From Listeria ivanovii subsp. ivanovii (GTDB taxonomy: Bacteria > Bacillota > Bacilli > Lactobacillales > Listeriaceae): a stretch of 64,000 bases of DNA. Location of the stretch: assembly GCF_900187025.1 (NCBI RefSeq), contig NZ_LT906478.1:294001-358000 (forward strand), in the 5' to 3' direction. Below the pieces are notes generated by a model. That model was not told the DNA's origin. It saw only the letters and a list, made by a program, of their open reading frames with translations, and searched no databases. Each line of letters begins with the position of its first letter. Within the stretch, counting starts at the first letter, position 1. Of this stretch, positions 14,158-21,454 are shown in pieces. The position numbers were made by a program, and so were the translations under genes.

Positions 14158-14213
14158 ATTTGTGGGTTACTATGAAGTATATAAATGCGAAATTTGCAGA
14201 GAGGAAGGAAGAC

Positions 14214-15707
14214 ATGGACGAGAAAGAGAAAGATTTAAATGAAAACACAGAAAATGAAAGCACGCCAAAAAAAGAGGTCGAGGATACTTTACATACAGCT
14301 GAGAACCCGCAGCCAGTCCAAGAATCTCCTATCGTGGAAGGCGTGACACCAGAAGGAGAAAAGTTTGCTGGCGCGACAGAAGAAGTCGCTGAAGCAAGCT
14401 CTACGAATGCTTTTTTTGAAGAAGCAAGTAAGGAACCTACCAGACCAGCACCAGGACCAAGACGTGCTGGAAATGCTGGCGGGGGAGTACCGCCTAATCG
14501 TGTAACACCGAGCGGAAGTGGTAACGGGAATGGACAGCCACCTAAACGCGGAAAACATTTTGTAGGATATTTTTTAACAGCGCTTATCGGAGTTATTATT
14601 GGCGGATTAATTATTTTCTTTGTTGGTTGGAACAACGGTGACAACGCAGATACAGCGAATAATACAACCGAAAATAAATCTGGCAAAGTGGAAAAAGTAA
14701 CCGTTAATACGACTTCAGATGTGACCAAAGCAGTAGACAAAGTTCAAGATGCGGTAGTGAGTGTATTAAATTACCAATCATCTTCATCTCTTGATGGAAC
14801 AACTACATCTGAACAAGAAGCTTCATCTGGATCAGGCGTGATTTATAAAAAAGCTAATGGTAAAGCATACATCGTAACAAACAATCACGTAGTAGCTGAT
14901 GCCAATAAATTAGAAGTAACTTTCACAAACGGTAAAAAATCAGAAGCAAAATTACTTGGAACAGACGAATGGAACGATTTAGCTGTTCTTGAAATTGATG
15001 ATAAAAACGTGAGCACAGTTGCAGCATTTGGCGACTCTGATGCATTAAAATTAGGAGAACCAGCAATTGCCATTGGTAGTCCGCTTGGAACAGAATTTTC
15101 TGGTTCTGTAACACAAGGTATCATTTCCGGCTTAAATCGTGCCGTGCCAGTTGATACTAATGGTGATGGAACAGAGGACTGGGAAGCAGACGTTATCCAA
15201 ACAGACGCAGCAATCAACCCAGGTAATAGTGGTGGAGCTTTAATTAATATCGAAGGACAAGTAATTGGGATCAATTCCATGAAAATTTCGATGGAAAACG
15301 TAGAAGGCATCAGCTTTGCGATTCCAAGTAACACAGTAGAACCAATCATCGAACAATTAGAAACAAAAGGTGAAGTAGAACGTCCATCACTTGGCGTTTC
15401 CTTACGTGATGTGGATACTATTCCAGAAACACAACAAAAAAATGTCTTGAAATTACCAGACGGCGTTGATTATGGCGCAATGGTTCAACAAGTCGTATCT
15501 GGCTCTGCAGCAGATAAAGCAGGTCTAAAACAATATGACGTTATCGTGGAATTAAATGGCGAAAAAGTAACAAATTCCATGACATTACGCAAAATCTTAT
15601 ATGGTAATGATGTAAAAATTGGCGATAAAGTCAAAGTGAAATACTACCGTGATGGGAAAGAAAAAACATCAGATATTCAATTAGAAGCAGCAAAAACAAC
15701 GACATGA
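14214..15707 (+). CDS. htrA: Membrane-anchored serine protease HtrA/DegP
   Basis: Surface quality-control protease and chaperone, 497 residues from this start. The ATG at 14214 follows GAGGAAGGA at the right distance; in-frame starts further up lack a ribosome binding site. The order is an acidic, Pro/Gly-rich cytoplasmic segment, a transmembrane helix at about 118-139, a trypsin-like domain with His225 (NNHVV), Asp255 (NDLAVL) and Ser339 (GNSGGAL), then one PDZ domain. It lies next to the wal genes as in Bacillus, where it is yyxA. Confidence 0.97.
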   Translation: MDEKEKDLNENTENESTPKKEVEDTLHTAENPQPVQESPIVEGVTPEGEKFAGATEEVAEASSTNAFFEEASKEPTRPAPGPRRAGNAGGGVPPNRVTPSGSGNGNGQPPKRGKHFVGYFLTALIGVIIGGLIIFFVGWNNGDNADTANNTTENKSGKVEKVTVNTTSDVTKAVDKVQDAVVSVLNYQSSSSLDGTTTSEQEASSGSGVIYKKANGKAYIVTNNHVVADANKLEVTFTNGKKSEAKLLGTDEWNDLAVLEIDDKNVSTVAAFGDSDALKLGEPAIAIGSPLGTEFSGSVTQGIISGLNRAVPVDTNGDGTEDWEADVIQTDAAINPGNSGGALINIEGQVIGINSMKISMENVEGISFAIPSNTVEPIIEQLETKGEVERPSLGVSLRDVDTIPETQQKNVLKLPDGVDYGAMVQQVVSGSAADKAGLKQYDVIVELNGEKVTNSMTLRKILYGNDVKIGDKVKVKYYRDGKEKTSDIQLEAAKTTT

Positions 15708-15713
15708 TGAGTG

Positions 15714-15749
15714 AAAAGCCATTCTCTTGAAAAAGAGGGTGGCTTTTTT
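15714..15749 (+). terminator. Terminator of htrA
   Basis: Arms AAAAGCCATTCTCTT / AAGAGGGTGGCTTTT pair over 15 bases with wobble pairs, followed by TTTTTT. Confidence 0.92.
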
Positions 15750-15835
15750 GGTGTGGAAAAGCTGTGTATAGTGATTTTTTTCGGATATAGATATAGTAGA
15801 GAACGTAAATTCGGCTACTAAATATGGATGTGATT

Positions 15836-16276
15836 TGTGGATATGTGGATAAGTTCTGTGGATAACCTGTGTATAAGCAGTGAATATCTTGTGGAAAAGA
15901 ACAATTTTGATAATTTGATTAATAAATACAGATTTATTTTTGAAAAAAACGTATTTTTTGTGAAAATATGGGACAAAAAAGAAAAATGTGGATAGAAAGC
16001 CATTTATCCACAATCCGTCAAATAATGTGGCGGAAATGTGAAAGCAAAAATAACTTTACTAAAAAAAGAAATACGTGAGAGCTACTGTGGGAGAATTGTT
16101 TAGCACGATTTTCGGGAATAATAATGGGCTAAAATAGTACTAAAATACACTTGTGGATAACCTGTGGATAGTGAAAATAAGTGAGCATATATATTGTATG
16201 GAATATATGTTCGGACACAAAATAGCGAATAGGGCTGTGGATATGTGGATAATATTTGTGTATAACTTGTGTATAA
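15836..16276 (+). other. DnaA-box cluster in a gene-free 860-base region
   Basis: Twelve 9-mers match the DnaA box TTATCCACA or its complement TGTGGATAA with zero or one mismatch. Eleven read as TGTG(G/T)ATA(A/T/G), starting at 15836, 15844, 15857, 15868, 15987, 16152, 16163, 16236, 16244, 16257 and 16268; one is in the opposite orientation at 16004. The groups at 15836 and 16236 have identical internal spacings (8, 13, 11) and lie exactly 400 bases apart. No coding sequence is supported between htrA and bglA. It resembles the DnaA-titrating clusters found away from oriC in Bacillus. Confidence 0.85.
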
Positions 16277-16400
16277 GGGTGGGATAACTTGTGGAGTGGA
16301 AAAACGGAAATACTTCTTTTTTGTTTGGAGTATCGTTTTTCTTGCAGGATAAAAGGACTAATTAAGCGATAAAACAACAAATTTAGCTAGAAAATCAGCG

Positions 16401-16429
16401 TTGACAGAAAGCGTTTTATCTTGTATCAT
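16401..16429 (+). promoter_or_regulatory. SigA promoter with overlapping cre site for the bgl operon
   Basis: TTGACA (16401-16406), a 17-base spacer and TATCAT (16424-16429). The spacer holds GAAAGCGTTTTA, which matches the core of a CcpA cre site (16404-16420). Carbon catabolite repression by CcpA is therefore likely. Confidence 0.8.
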
Positions 16430-16442
16430 GTACTTAATTAAA

Positions 16443-16538
16443 GGAATGTCACTGATTCGATCAGGCATGACCCGGAATAAGACAATTACTTGTTGAGTGA
16501 AATCTTGCAAGCATTTGTCTAACTCCGGGTCATTTTTT
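16443..16538 (+). promoter_or_regulatory. RAT antiterminator and overlapping terminator before bglA
   Basis: A 30-base ribonucleic antiterminator (16443-16472) with the GGAATGTCACTG and GGCATGACC blocks of LicT/BglG targets overlaps the left arm of a terminator (ATGACCCGGA at 16467, TCCGGGTCAT at 16524, then TTTTTT). Binding of the antiterminator protein would prevent the terminator and switch the operon on. Confidence 0.9.
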
Positions 16539-16554
16539 GTATCAAAAAGTATAA

Positions 16555-17991
<1,437 letters not shown>

Positions 17992-18032
17992 TTTAACTTT
18001 CTTAGATGTAAACTATTGAAGAGGAAAAAAAG

Positions 18033-18878
18033 ATGATAATAAAAAAAGTATTTAATAATAATGTTGTTTTAGTCATTGAGAAGCAGGCAGAAGAAAAAAT
18101 CCTCATGGGGAAAGGCATTGGTTATCAAAAATTCCCTGGCGACCCAGTTGACTTAACTAATTTAGAAAAAACATTTGTATTAAATGACGATGCAACAGAA
18201 GGGAAATTGGCTGCTTTTTTTGATGAGGTACCGATAGAGATTATTAATTTAAGTGATTATTTAGTGAAGCAAGGAAAAGAGAAATTAGGCGCACATATTA
18301 CAGACAACTTACTAATCCCGCTAGCTGACCATATTAATTTTGCGATAACTCGTGCAAAAGAAGGCATCCAAATTGACTACCCTTTAAAATGGGAAATTCG
18401 CCATATGTATCCAGAAGAAGTGGCATTTTCTGAAGAAGCTATCAAGTGGATGCTAGAACATGAAGGCATTACATTACCAAGCGAAGAGGTAGTTCCGATT
18501 GCGATGCATTTTGTGAACGCTAGATTTGGTACTGCGGAAATAGAACAAGCATTTGAAATGACTACTTTAGTGGCCAAAATATTAGATATTATTAACTATC
18601 ATTACCTTATTCAAGTAGATGAAAACTCCTTAAATTATGCACGTTTGATTACCCACTTGCGCTACTTTATTTTACGTCAAATGAAAAAAGAATCTGACAT
18701 CGTTGAAGAGGCACTCCTTTATGACGTAGTGAAAAGTAAGTACCCTAAGGCTTTTGAATGTGCTTTGAAAGTGAAAAAATTACTAGAAGAAACGATGAAC
18801 TGGACTGTGAATCACGATGAAGTGCTTTATTTAACGCTCCATATTCATCGTGTAACTACCCGAGAAACAACTAAATAA
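18033..18878 (+). CDS. Transcriptional antiterminator of the BglG/LicT family
   Basis: RNA-binding antiterminator, 281 residues: a co-antiterminator domain at about 1-56 (FNNNVVLV, GKGIGYQK) and two PTS regulation domains. The PRD histidines are visible in LADHINFAI and IRHMYPEE (PRD1) and in AMHFVNARFG and LTLHIHRV (PRD2). Phosphorylation of these by HPr and the EII would set activity according to sugar supply. It lies between bglA and the PTS gene and each flank has a matching RAT site, so it most likely controls its own operon at two points. Confidence 0.94.
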   Translation: MIIKKVFNNNVVLVIEKQAEEKILMGKGIGYQKFPGDPVDLTNLEKTFVLNDDATEGKLAAFFDEVPIEIINLSDYLVKQGKEKLGAHITDNLLIPLADHINFAITRAKEGIQIDYPLKWEIRHMYPEEVAFSEEAIKWMLEHEGITLPSEEVVPIAMHFVNARFGTAEIEQAFEMTTLVAKILDIINYHYLIQVDENSLNYARLITHLRYFILRQMKKESDIVEEALLYDVVKSKYPKAFECALKVKKLLEETMNWTVNHDEVLYLTLHIHRVTTRETTK

Positions 18879-18887
18879 TTTATTACA

Positions 18888-18965
18888 GGATCGTTACTGT
18901 TTGGCAGGCGTGACCTAAATAAAAGCAGGCATTCTTTAGTGTCTATCTTTTGTTTAGGTTTTTTT
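18888..18965 (+). promoter_or_regulatory. Second RAT and terminator between antiterminator and EIIBCA genes
   Basis: RAT with GGATCGTTACTG and GGCAGGCGTGACCT (18888-18917) overlapping a terminator with arms ACCTAAA (18913) and TTTAGGT (18953) and a T tract. It is close to the classical LicT target and should make EIIBCA expression conditional even when upstream genes are transcribed. Confidence 0.9.
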
Positions 18966-18990
18966 ATTACAAAAGAAGTGGAGGAAAACA

Positions 18991-20865
18991 ATGAATAATC
19001 AAGAATTAGCAAAAGCGATACTCGCACTTGTCGGGGGAGAAAAAAATGTCAGCGAAGTCATGCACTGTTATACAAGATTAAGGTTTCACTTAAACAAAAT
19101 TGATTTAGCGGATAAAGATAAAATCGAGGAGTTACCAGGTGTCATTAGTGTCCAAATTCAAAGCGGACAATTCCAAGTAGTTATTGGCAACAAGGTTTCA
19201 AAAGTGTACAAGGAACTTATTAAACTTGGCAATTTTAAACAAGGAGAAAGTGCAGAAATAGAAAGCGATAAGAAAAAAGGGAACATTATTGGTCGTTTTT
19301 TTGAAGTTATTTCAACTATTTTCACGCCAATAATTCCGGCAATTGCCGGAGCGGGGATGCTAAAAGGGTTGCTCGGTCTTGTTACGGCATTTGGCTGGGT
19401 AGAACCGACAAGTGGCGTTATTACAATGCTGCAAATTGTATCTGACTGTGTGTTTTATTTCTTACCATTCTTCCTTGCTGTTTCTGCGGCTCGAATCTTT
19501 AAGACGAATGAGTTTATAGCAGTTGCTGTTGCAGGTGGGATGATGTATCCAATTATTATTGATGGCGCCAAAGCTATAGCAAATGGTGGGCCGACCGGAT
19601 CTGACCTATTTGGGCTCCCTGTACCGTTTATCAATTATAGCTCTACGGTTATTCCAATTATTTTAGCAGTTTGGATTTTAAGTTACGTTTATCGTTGGGT
19701 AGACAGATGGATGCCGTCTTCTTTAGGTATTGTATTTACTCCGACGATTGTATTAATGATTATTATTCCTGTACAATTAATTGTTATTGGACCACTAGGC
19801 TCCTATCTGGGTGTTTGGTTAGCAGAGGGGGTTACTTGGCTGTTCGCGCACGGTGGAATCTTAGCCGGTGGATTGCTCGGGGCAACTCGTCCGTTACTCG
19901 TTATGGTCGGCATGCATTATGGTTTAATGCCGATTGCAATTCAAAATATTGCTGTACTTGGTTATGACTACTTAATGCCAGTCTTCCTAATGGCTAATAT
20001 GGGTCAAGCAGCAGCTGCCCTTGCCGTATTCTTAAAAACAAAAAACAAAGATTTAAAAGCAATTGCAGCTCCTTCCACGATTGCCGGTTTCTTAGGAATT
20101 ACCGAACCAGCAATGTATGGGGTTAACTTGAAACTAAAGAAACCATTTATCGCAGGTTTAATTGGTTCTGGAATTGGTGGCGCCTTTGTTACAGGTTGTG
20201 GAGTTACTGGGAATGCGATTGTTTTACCAGGATTAGTTAGTTTGCCAGTATTTATGGGGCCGAAATTTATTTTTCTAATCATTGGAATGCTACTTACGAT
20301 TACGATCACCATTGCACTAACATTCTTCTTGAAATTTGATGATAAAGATACAACTGCAAAACCAGCAAAACAAACAGAAAGCAAAGCATCTTCCATTGAA
20401 CACGAAACCGTTCTAAGCCCAGCAATCGGAACAACGGTTGCTTTGAAAGAAGTACCAGATGCAACTTTTGCGGAAGAAATTATGGGAAAAGGAATCGCGA
20501 TTAATCCGTCTGTTGGTGAAATTTATGCGCCATTTTCGGGTGAAGTAGTAACCTTTTTCAAAACTGGTCATGCACTTGGAATGCGCTCGAAAGAAGGTGT
20601 GGAGCTGTTGATTCATGTCGGGATTGATACGGTGAATTTAAATGGCGCTCATTTCCATCCTAAAGTGAAACAAGGCGATCAAGTGCAGGCTGGAGATTTG
20701 TTACTCACGTTTGATATTGAGGAAATTAAAGCGGCAGGATATGAAATCATTACACCGGTCATTGTGACGAACACAGAAAATTACTTAGATGTTATTGGAG
20801 TGGATGAAAACCAACCGATAAAACCGGGCGATTGGTTGATTCAAATTATTAATAAAATAAGTTGA
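18991..20865 (+). CDS. PTS beta-glucoside-specific EIIBCA component
   Basis: Three-domain permease, 624 residues. EIIB at residues 1-80 has the phospho-Cys in VMHCYTRLRF (Cys26). EIIC at about 105-450 is a polytopic membrane domain with the GITEPAMYG signature. EIIA at about 475-615 has the phospho-His in LLIHVGIDTV. It imports and phosphorylates beta-glucosides for bglA and would also phosphorylate the antiterminator when sugar is absent. GGAGG precedes the ATG. Confidence 0.95.
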   Translation: MNNQELAKAILALVGGEKNVSEVMHCYTRLRFHLNKIDLADKDKIEELPGVISVQIQSGQFQVVIGNKVSKVYKELIKLGNFKQGESAEIESDKKKGNIIGRFFEVISTIFTPIIPAIAGAGMLKGLLGLVTAFGWVEPTSGVITMLQIVSDCVFYFLPFFLAVSAARIFKTNEFIAVAVAGGMMYPIIIDGAKAIANGGPTGSDLFGLPVPFINYSSTVIPIILAVWILSYVYRWVDRWMPSSLGIVFTPTIVLMIIIPVQLIVIGPLGSYLGVWLAEGVTWLFAHGGILAGGLLGATRPLLVMVGMHYGLMPIAIQNIAVLGYDYLMPVFLMANMGQAAAALAVFLKTKNKDLKAIAAPSTIAGFLGITEPAMYGVNLKLKKPFIAGLIGSGIGGAFVTGCGVTGNAIVLPGLVSLPVFMGPKFIFLIIGMLLTITITIALTFFLKFDDKDTTAKPAKQTESKASSIEHETVLSPAIGTTVALKEVPDATFAEEIMGKGIAINPSVGEIYAPFSGEVVTFFKTGHALGMRSKEGVELLIHVGIDTVNLNGAHFHPKVKQGDQVQAGDLLLTFDIEEIKAAGYEIITPVIVTNTENYLDVIGVDENQPIKPGDWLIQIINKIS

Positions 20866-20974: not shown

Positions 20975-21454
20975 ATGAACATTCAAGTTGTAACAGTAGG
21001 AAAACTAAAAGAAAAATATTTAGTGCAAGGAATTGCGGAATATTTAAAGCGTCTTAGCGCGTATGCGAAAGTAAATATTGTCGAAGTTGCGGACGAAAAA
21101 GCGCCAGAAGTATTGAGCGAGGCGGAAATGAAACAGGTGAAAGATAAGGAAGGCATGCGGATTTTGGCGAAGATTCCTGAAGATGCTTATGTAATTGCAC
21201 TGGCGATAGATGGCAAAATGAAGTCAAGCGAGGAATTTGCGGCGGATTTGGATAAGCTAGCGACATATGGCCGGAGTAAAGTGACGTTTGTGATTGGCGG
21301 GTCACTTGGGCTGAGTGACGCGGTATTGAAGCGGAGTGATGAGCGGATTTCGTTTGGACGATTGACTTTGCCACATCAGTTAATGAGATTGGTCTTGGTG
21401 GAGCAAATTTACCGGGCGTTTCGGATTGTGCGAGGGGAGCCTTATCATAAATGA
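20975..21454 (+). CDS. rlmH: 23S rRNA (pseudouridine1915-N3)-methyltransferase RlmH
   Basis: SPOUT-class methyltransferase, 159 residues from the ATG at 20975. The knot motifs [11 protein letters not shown] and [18 protein letters not shown] are intact, and the end GEPYHK matches RlmH of Staphylococcus (OrfX). The ATG follows AAGGGTGG; longer in-frame starts would run into the previous terminator. The terminal 18 bases resemble the SCC attachment site used in staphylococci. Its stop overlaps the start of a 56-codon gene. Confidence 0.96.

Follow-up and report, generated by a model that had tools for sequence, protein, structure and literature searches.

A doubled DnaA-box module in Listeria and its likely kinship with the Bacillus subtilis yyzF–yydA region

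Among the described systems that control DnaA through box arrays, DARS of Escherichia coli works with Fis and IHF. The E. coli datA locus works with IHF (PMC13220808). According to the accessible text of that 2026 review, Bacillus subtilis has neither datA nor DARS and also lacks DiaA, Hda, Dam, SeqA and IHF, and the existence of regulators of the DnaA ATP/ADP balance in this species is unknown. B. subtilis cells without six DnaA-box clusters initiate replication early, and restoring one cluster gives partial relief (PMC5295017; early initiation is also described in PMC13220808). The effect is strong only when all six are removed, and no B. subtilis cluster with a significant part in controlling initiation has been identified, as the available part of the former review puts it (PMC5295017); an approximately ten-fold excess of DnaA does not cause over-initiation (PMC13220808). 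Because the evidence in these reviews is mixed, we weigh the role of such clusters as modest and additive. The cluster described here bears on how Bacilli limit initiation. The closest published relative is region 8 of B. subtilis, located upstream of yydA and downstream of yyzF, which in the accessible text of PMC4447404 has seven boxes and is a strong DnaA site (Kd for ATP-DnaA, 0.16 µM); yyzF-yydABCD is listed among the directly DnaA-regulated sets in the part of PMC8203912 available to us.

Two box units in gene-free DNA

Between positions 15752 and 16298 of the window (the whole 64,000-nt stretch of DNA analysed), 14 DnaA boxes differ from TTATCCACA by no more than one base, and five of them are exact. 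Other 547-bp segments hold at most two (n = 625, 100-base steps), and dinucleotide shuffling of the intergenic DNA (15703–16572), repeated 1000 times, gave a mean of 0.47 and a maximum of 4; the number of boxes in this non-oriC stretch exceeds chance. The original prediction had placed twelve boxes within 15836–16276, and the boxes it named lie where it put them: the interval has 13 sites that deviate from TTATCCACA at one position at most, or 12 without TTTTCCACA at 15890.

The boxes form two units on the minus strand, each of about 147 bp and offset by exactly 400 bp. Unit A (15752–15898) has boxes at 15752, 15763, 15836, 15844, 15857, 15868 and 15890, and unit B (16152–16298) at 16152, 16163, 16236, 16244, 16257, 16268 and 16290, so that box starts within a unit lie at 0, 11, 84, 92, 105, 116 and 138. 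The first box of unit A is TTTTCCACA. The box at 15763 is weak, with two mismatches here and one in many other species, and the seventh box of unit B is degenerate (three mismatches). The 8/13/11 spacings and the 400-bp offset of the two predicted modules are correct, but the modules reach further than proposed, with starts at 15752 and 16152, and what had been taken for a third, partial module at 16152/16163 is the front of unit B. A pair of boxes facing each other, at 15987 (minus strand) and 16004 (plus strand, exact), occupies 15987–16012 between the units. The 73-bp spacer of each unit holds a 29-bp imperfect palindrome, which we call the dyad. Units A and B are identical at 56/62 box positions, 20/29 dyad positions and 25/56 other positions, and at 13/50 and 19/50 positions in their flanks. 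At 10.5 bp per turn, box starts fall at 0, 1.05, 8.0, 10.0, 11.05 and 13.1 helical turns; most are near-whole turns apart and therefore lie on one face of the helix, the exception being the box at 92 (8.76 turns).

To the left lies a gene for an htrA-like serine protease (14193–15707, plus strand). The cluster region itself has only mechanical open reading frames on the minus strand, in agreement with the claim that it is gene-free. To the right, outside the module, a bgl operon (16573–20865, plus strand) encoding a GH1 enzyme, an antiterminator with CAT_RBD and PRD domains and a PTS EIIBCA separates the cluster from rlmH (20975–21454, plus strand), its right neighbor in most species. The bgl leader (16418–16554) may form a LicT/BglG-type antiterminator structure and contains an inverted repeat with 26-bp arms (16467–16492 and 16508–16533); a match of this leader to the Rfam bglG leader family (RF03530) scored well under threshold. 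A known RNA in the cluster region was also considered and rejected: Rfam otherwise gave two miRNA matches, which we take as chance.

The cluster is far from dnaA, as predicted, lying ~310 kb, or one tenth of the chromosome length, away from box clusters at the contig ends of the window's genome (G000), which we take as oriC. At least three exact TTATMCACA boxes within 1 kb occur in G000 only at these ends, in the window cluster and between ywlC (threonylcarbamoyl-AMP synthase) and prmC. The ywlC-prmC cluster (locus L061, 4512–4829; 2587.5–2587.8 kb of G000) overlaps the 3' end of prmC. Its region is matched in 25/25 Listeria genomes (in G001, G007, G013 and G023 by short pieces only), with 5–10 boxes per 450 bp at each genome's main match, and it corresponds to the ywlC DnaA region described for B. 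subtilis.

The original prediction had also entertained a second, origin-like element. Two groups of boxes with AT-rich DNA between them do resemble a bipartite origin, and the cluster shares with oriC the same boxes in AT-rich intergenic DNA; unlike oriC, it has no adjoining dnaA or dnaN, no above-chance run of DnaA-trios and no turn of the GC skew, whose sign is unchanged across it. Its longest trio run, 4, is reached or exceeded in 44/200 shuffles, whereas the oriC part of G000 has a run of 5, TAGTAATAGTAATAG, near a box, a length that 1/200 shuffles reach. In the accessible text of PMC11019786, B. subtilis clusters are inhibitory and are not alternative origins. With trio runs at chance level and no skew turn we discarded a second origin, which we regard as exceedingly improbable.

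Conservation in Listeria and upstream of rlmH in Bacilli

The conservation in sister species on which the original prediction hinged was found: the cluster region is matched in 25/25 Listeria genomes, and the 8-13 box triple occurs in both units in 21/25 and in at least one unit in 25/25. Many of them also have the 11 and 73 steps, with differences of a base or two; G021 keeps only seven boxes. With ungapped anchoring, identity between Listeria genomes is 93–97% for the boxes at 84, 92 and 105, 52–69% for the four outer boxes, 53–70% for the dyad and 43–59% for the remainder of the unit; because the anchoring is ungapped, spacers of 72–75 bp are misaligned and the value for the dyad is understated.

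In 17/25 Listeria genomes the cluster is flanked by htrA and rlmH, with no more than 1.5 kb from one gene to the other (for G020, the first 3 kb of the locus were covered). The 4.3-kb bgl operon separates the cluster from rlmH in 5/25 (G000, G003, G018, G022 and G024). From the htrA end to the cluster the distance is ~2.1 kb in G007 and over 4 kb in G021, and in G011 htrA is not found within 4 kb to the left, where a GH1-like gene (38% identity) is located. Both sides of the cluster thus gain genes, the bgl operon on the rlmH side and other DNA on the htrA side in a few Listeria. Near their ends, five records that bear Listeria phage names share sequence with part of the region; among them is OR846725.1, an unverified, unannotated wastewater contig. 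Host DNA or a break in the contig is the probable explanation.

Beyond Listeria, rlmH is present in 118/118 genomes of the order and 145/151 of the class. We collected 158 rlmH loci, some from Listeria and a few from genomes counted twice, together with their upstream DNA, whose length ranged from 0.5 to 13 kb and was mostly 1.5 or 3 kb. At 89 of them this DNA has at least four boxes within a span of 450 bp, as compared to 0/158 for the reversed consensus. Thirty-five loci have no box in the stretch covered; two belong to Listeria genomes in which the bgl operon intervenes, and the others come from both GC-rich and AT-rich genomes. Since GC content is under 0.45 in 16 of the 35, loss of the array is not confined to GC-rich genomes. 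A further 80 named loci were fetched, one of which was too short; among the remaining 79, at least four boxes in 450 bp are found at 66 (control, 0/79), including Bacillus mojavensis, B. pumilus, Planococcus, Sporosarcina, Anoxybacillus, Priestia and Exiguobacterium, and no array of this size is found at 13, Halobacillus, Oceanobacillus, Ornithinibacillus and Brevibacillus among them. The steps 11-73-8-13 are kept at L041, from another genus of Listeria's family, and members of other families share the unit geometry. Two loci inferred to belong to Staphylococcaceae, L131 and L160, have nine and five boxes within a 450-bp span ahead of rlmH. In staphylococci, rlmH is the target of SCC elements, and these two arrays presumably sit just upstream of the would-be SCCmec target gene.

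We take yydA of B. subtilis to be rlmH; the yyzF-rlmH gene order in relatives agrees with this. A small gene sits between the box groups in many relatives, and that of L041 matches YyzF (PF14116, E = 1.9e-15; TIGR04129, E = 7.4e-18). The YyzF family is found in 94/151 class genomes (92 above the cut-off), and the PF14116 profile matches 0/25 Listeria genomes. The rlmH neighborhood of the Listeria locus matches that of the published yyzF-yydA cluster, given yydA as rlmH. The original prediction had suggested that the locus might correspond to the DnaA-box clusters of B. subtilis; the neighborhood and the published region 8 argue that it is, more exactly, the Listeria ortholog of the yyzF-yydA DnaA region. 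The open-licence literature that we searched yielded nothing on the module in Listeria, and a genus that lacks yyzF yet keeps, and has doubled, the module appears to be new. A report of yydA in a riboswitch screen (PMC4448311, accessible text) concerns the yydA-yydB gap and was set aside.

An alternative is that the boxes serve mainly as a DnaA-responsive promoter or operator for the downstream gene, rlmH or here bgl, coupling its transcription to replication. In many relatives the final boxes lie ~10–60 bp upstream of the rlmH start codon, and the listing of B. subtilis yyzF-yydABCD as directly DnaA-regulated (PMC8203912) fits such a role. However, the geometry is kept where the 4.3-kb operon intervenes, in the window and in G003, G018, G022 and G024, as well as in L263 and L233, which have up to ~500 bp of extra DNA before rlmH; this argues against a simple promoter role. 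In addition, hundreds of bp separate unit A from the start codon that follows. We consider a mainly regulatory role a real if minority possibility.

A 29-bp dyad between the boxes

Dyad A (15796–15824, GTAGAGAACGTAAATTCGGCTACTAAATA) has no mismatch to the dyad pattern that we composed from Listeria units and some relatives already in view; dyad B (16196–16224, GTATGGAATATATGTTCGGACACAAAATA) lies exactly 400 bp away. In G000 the pattern matches with at most two mismatches only in units A and B; three mismatches give 16 further matches, as compared to 9 for the reversed pattern. Among 155 rlmH loci (the 158 minus three bgl-separated ones) the dyad is present at 32 (at most three mismatches; 10 are Listeria) and each of three controls at 0, a count that is not an independent test because some of these loci were known when the pattern was drawn up. 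Of the 79 newly fetched named loci the unchanged pattern matched 36 with at most three mismatches and 46 with at most four, and the reversed pattern 0 and 1, respectively. With the dyad at 0, boxes recur at –45 (plus strand), +27, +40, +48 and +61, in 34, 24, 19, 36 and 27 of the 46 named dyad loci, respectively. In B. mojavensis, B. halotolerans and B. pumilus the dyad lies 95 bp before rlmH. The composite of dyad and box at +48 occurs in 42/398 class genomes, at 52 places of which several with three mismatches are probably chance (reversed, 4/398 genomes); most sampled class genomes are therefore without the module in such a form.

Seven of the class genomes carry two copies with at most two mismatches: G000 and six of one family, which we infer to be Bacillus-like. 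A separate count in 12 genomes gave 19 dyad matches at up to two mismatches (reversed pattern, 4). Seven of the 19 are away from rlmH, and two of the six of these that were examined have box arrays; the other four (L319–L322) have none and are taken as chance. The two second arrays, in G193 and G179, have boxes at the offsets seen at rlmH (+40 and +48 in G193; +27, +40, +48 and +61 in G179) and lie near a gene for a LicT/SacT-type antiterminator. Their position fits the published B. subtilis ywcI-sacT/vpr cluster (region 3 in the accessible text of PMC4447404), likewise with an antiterminator neighbor, an assignment that rests on that neighboring gene; unlike the first arrays, they are not beside rlmH. 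LicT-type antiterminator genes lie near DnaA modules at unrelated loci, the second Bacillus-like module (L317, L318) and the bgl operon of the window (18033–18878), which may be coincidence.

We considered whether the dyad is a mere leftover of the 3' end of yyzF, meaningless on its own. Its left arm encodes the YyzF C-terminus in yyzF-bearing genomes, and it was not found at Staphylococcus-like, Exiguobacterium and several other array-bearing loci, as a leftover would allow. However, the right arm in Bacillus-like genomes lies beyond the yyzF stop codon and is conserved, Listeria, which has no yyzF, carries the dyad in both units throughout the genus, and the dyad recurs with the same box offsets at the second, antiterminator-adjoining locus. 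We therefore judge a leftover unlikely. The dyad probably either binds a second factor or, as a structural element, organizes the DnaA complex. Covariation of the arms is suggestive: two outer positions exceed simple shuffles in a pooled set uncorrected for relatedness, although one of the two is not seen when Listeria is left out and there is little variation at many pairs. A hairpin reading of the dyad was set aside: folding is better than in shuffles for unit A (z = –2.4) and not for unit B (z = –0.1).

The core of the LexA (SOS) operator is GAAC-N4-GTTC. Both dyads are one mismatch away from it and a perfect core occurs in some relatives (G101, and unit B of G009); we rejected a LexA site, one-mismatch matches to the core being below chance in the window (10, as compared to a mean of 21.5).

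Fixed box geometry around a conserved non-box dyad would also suit a nucleotide-switching element of the datA/DARS type, in which the dyad binds a partner replacing IHF or Fis. The confinement of the dyad to the two units in G000 (at most two mismatches) and its reuse at a second array in Bacillus-like genomes agree with this idea; it is set against the 2026 review, which in its accessible part calls regulators of the ATP/ADP balance in B. subtilis unknown (PMC13220808). We hold it to be very unlikely. A bolder and likewise improbable reading is that dyad and boxes constitute a two-component switch of many Bacilli, with DnaA on one face around a partner-bound palindrome, equivalent to datA/DARS. 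Such a switch would be portable, in tandem in Listeria and at rlmH plus a second locus in Bacillus-like genomes, and Listeria would have retained it while lacking the small gene with which it overlaps in other bacteria. In the open-licence literature searched nothing was found on the dyad; the conserved dyad of 29 bp, with its constant spacing to the boxes and its recurrence at a second Bacillus-like array, is apparently new.

A putative DnaA sink and its known relatives

We favor, with good though not full confidence, the reading that the cluster is orthologous to the B. subtilis yyzF-yydA DnaA region and titrates DnaA to delay initiation. Judged from box arrangement and kinship, its likely role is that of a DnaA sink that restrains initiation. 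Each unit would be bound cooperatively, with DnaA on one helical face except at the box at 92; once this early-replicating region is copied, the cluster would sequester free DnaA and contribute to a delay of the next initiation. Where rlmH lies directly downstream, bound DnaA may also tune its transcription. In the window strain this link would be severed by the bgl operon, with the cluster still intact.

Spacing that is fixed across families and accompanied by a dyad suggests that the arrangement of the sites is important and that there may be one additional binding factor. Modules with or without yyzF, with or without an adjoining rlmH, and in single or double form are natural experiments on these points.

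In its proposed role, the cluster resembles datA and DARS1/2 of E. coli, arrays of DnaA boxes in non-coding DNA outside oriC through which initiation is adjusted. With the B. subtilis yyzF-yydA region, compared here by way of close relatives of B. subtilis, it shares the rlmH/yydA neighborhood and dense DnaA boxes. It differs in having two units and ~14 boxes rather than one unit, in lacking yyzF and, in the window, in the bgl operon that intervenes before rlmH. The Listeria locus is a known kind of DnaA-box cluster in a new form.
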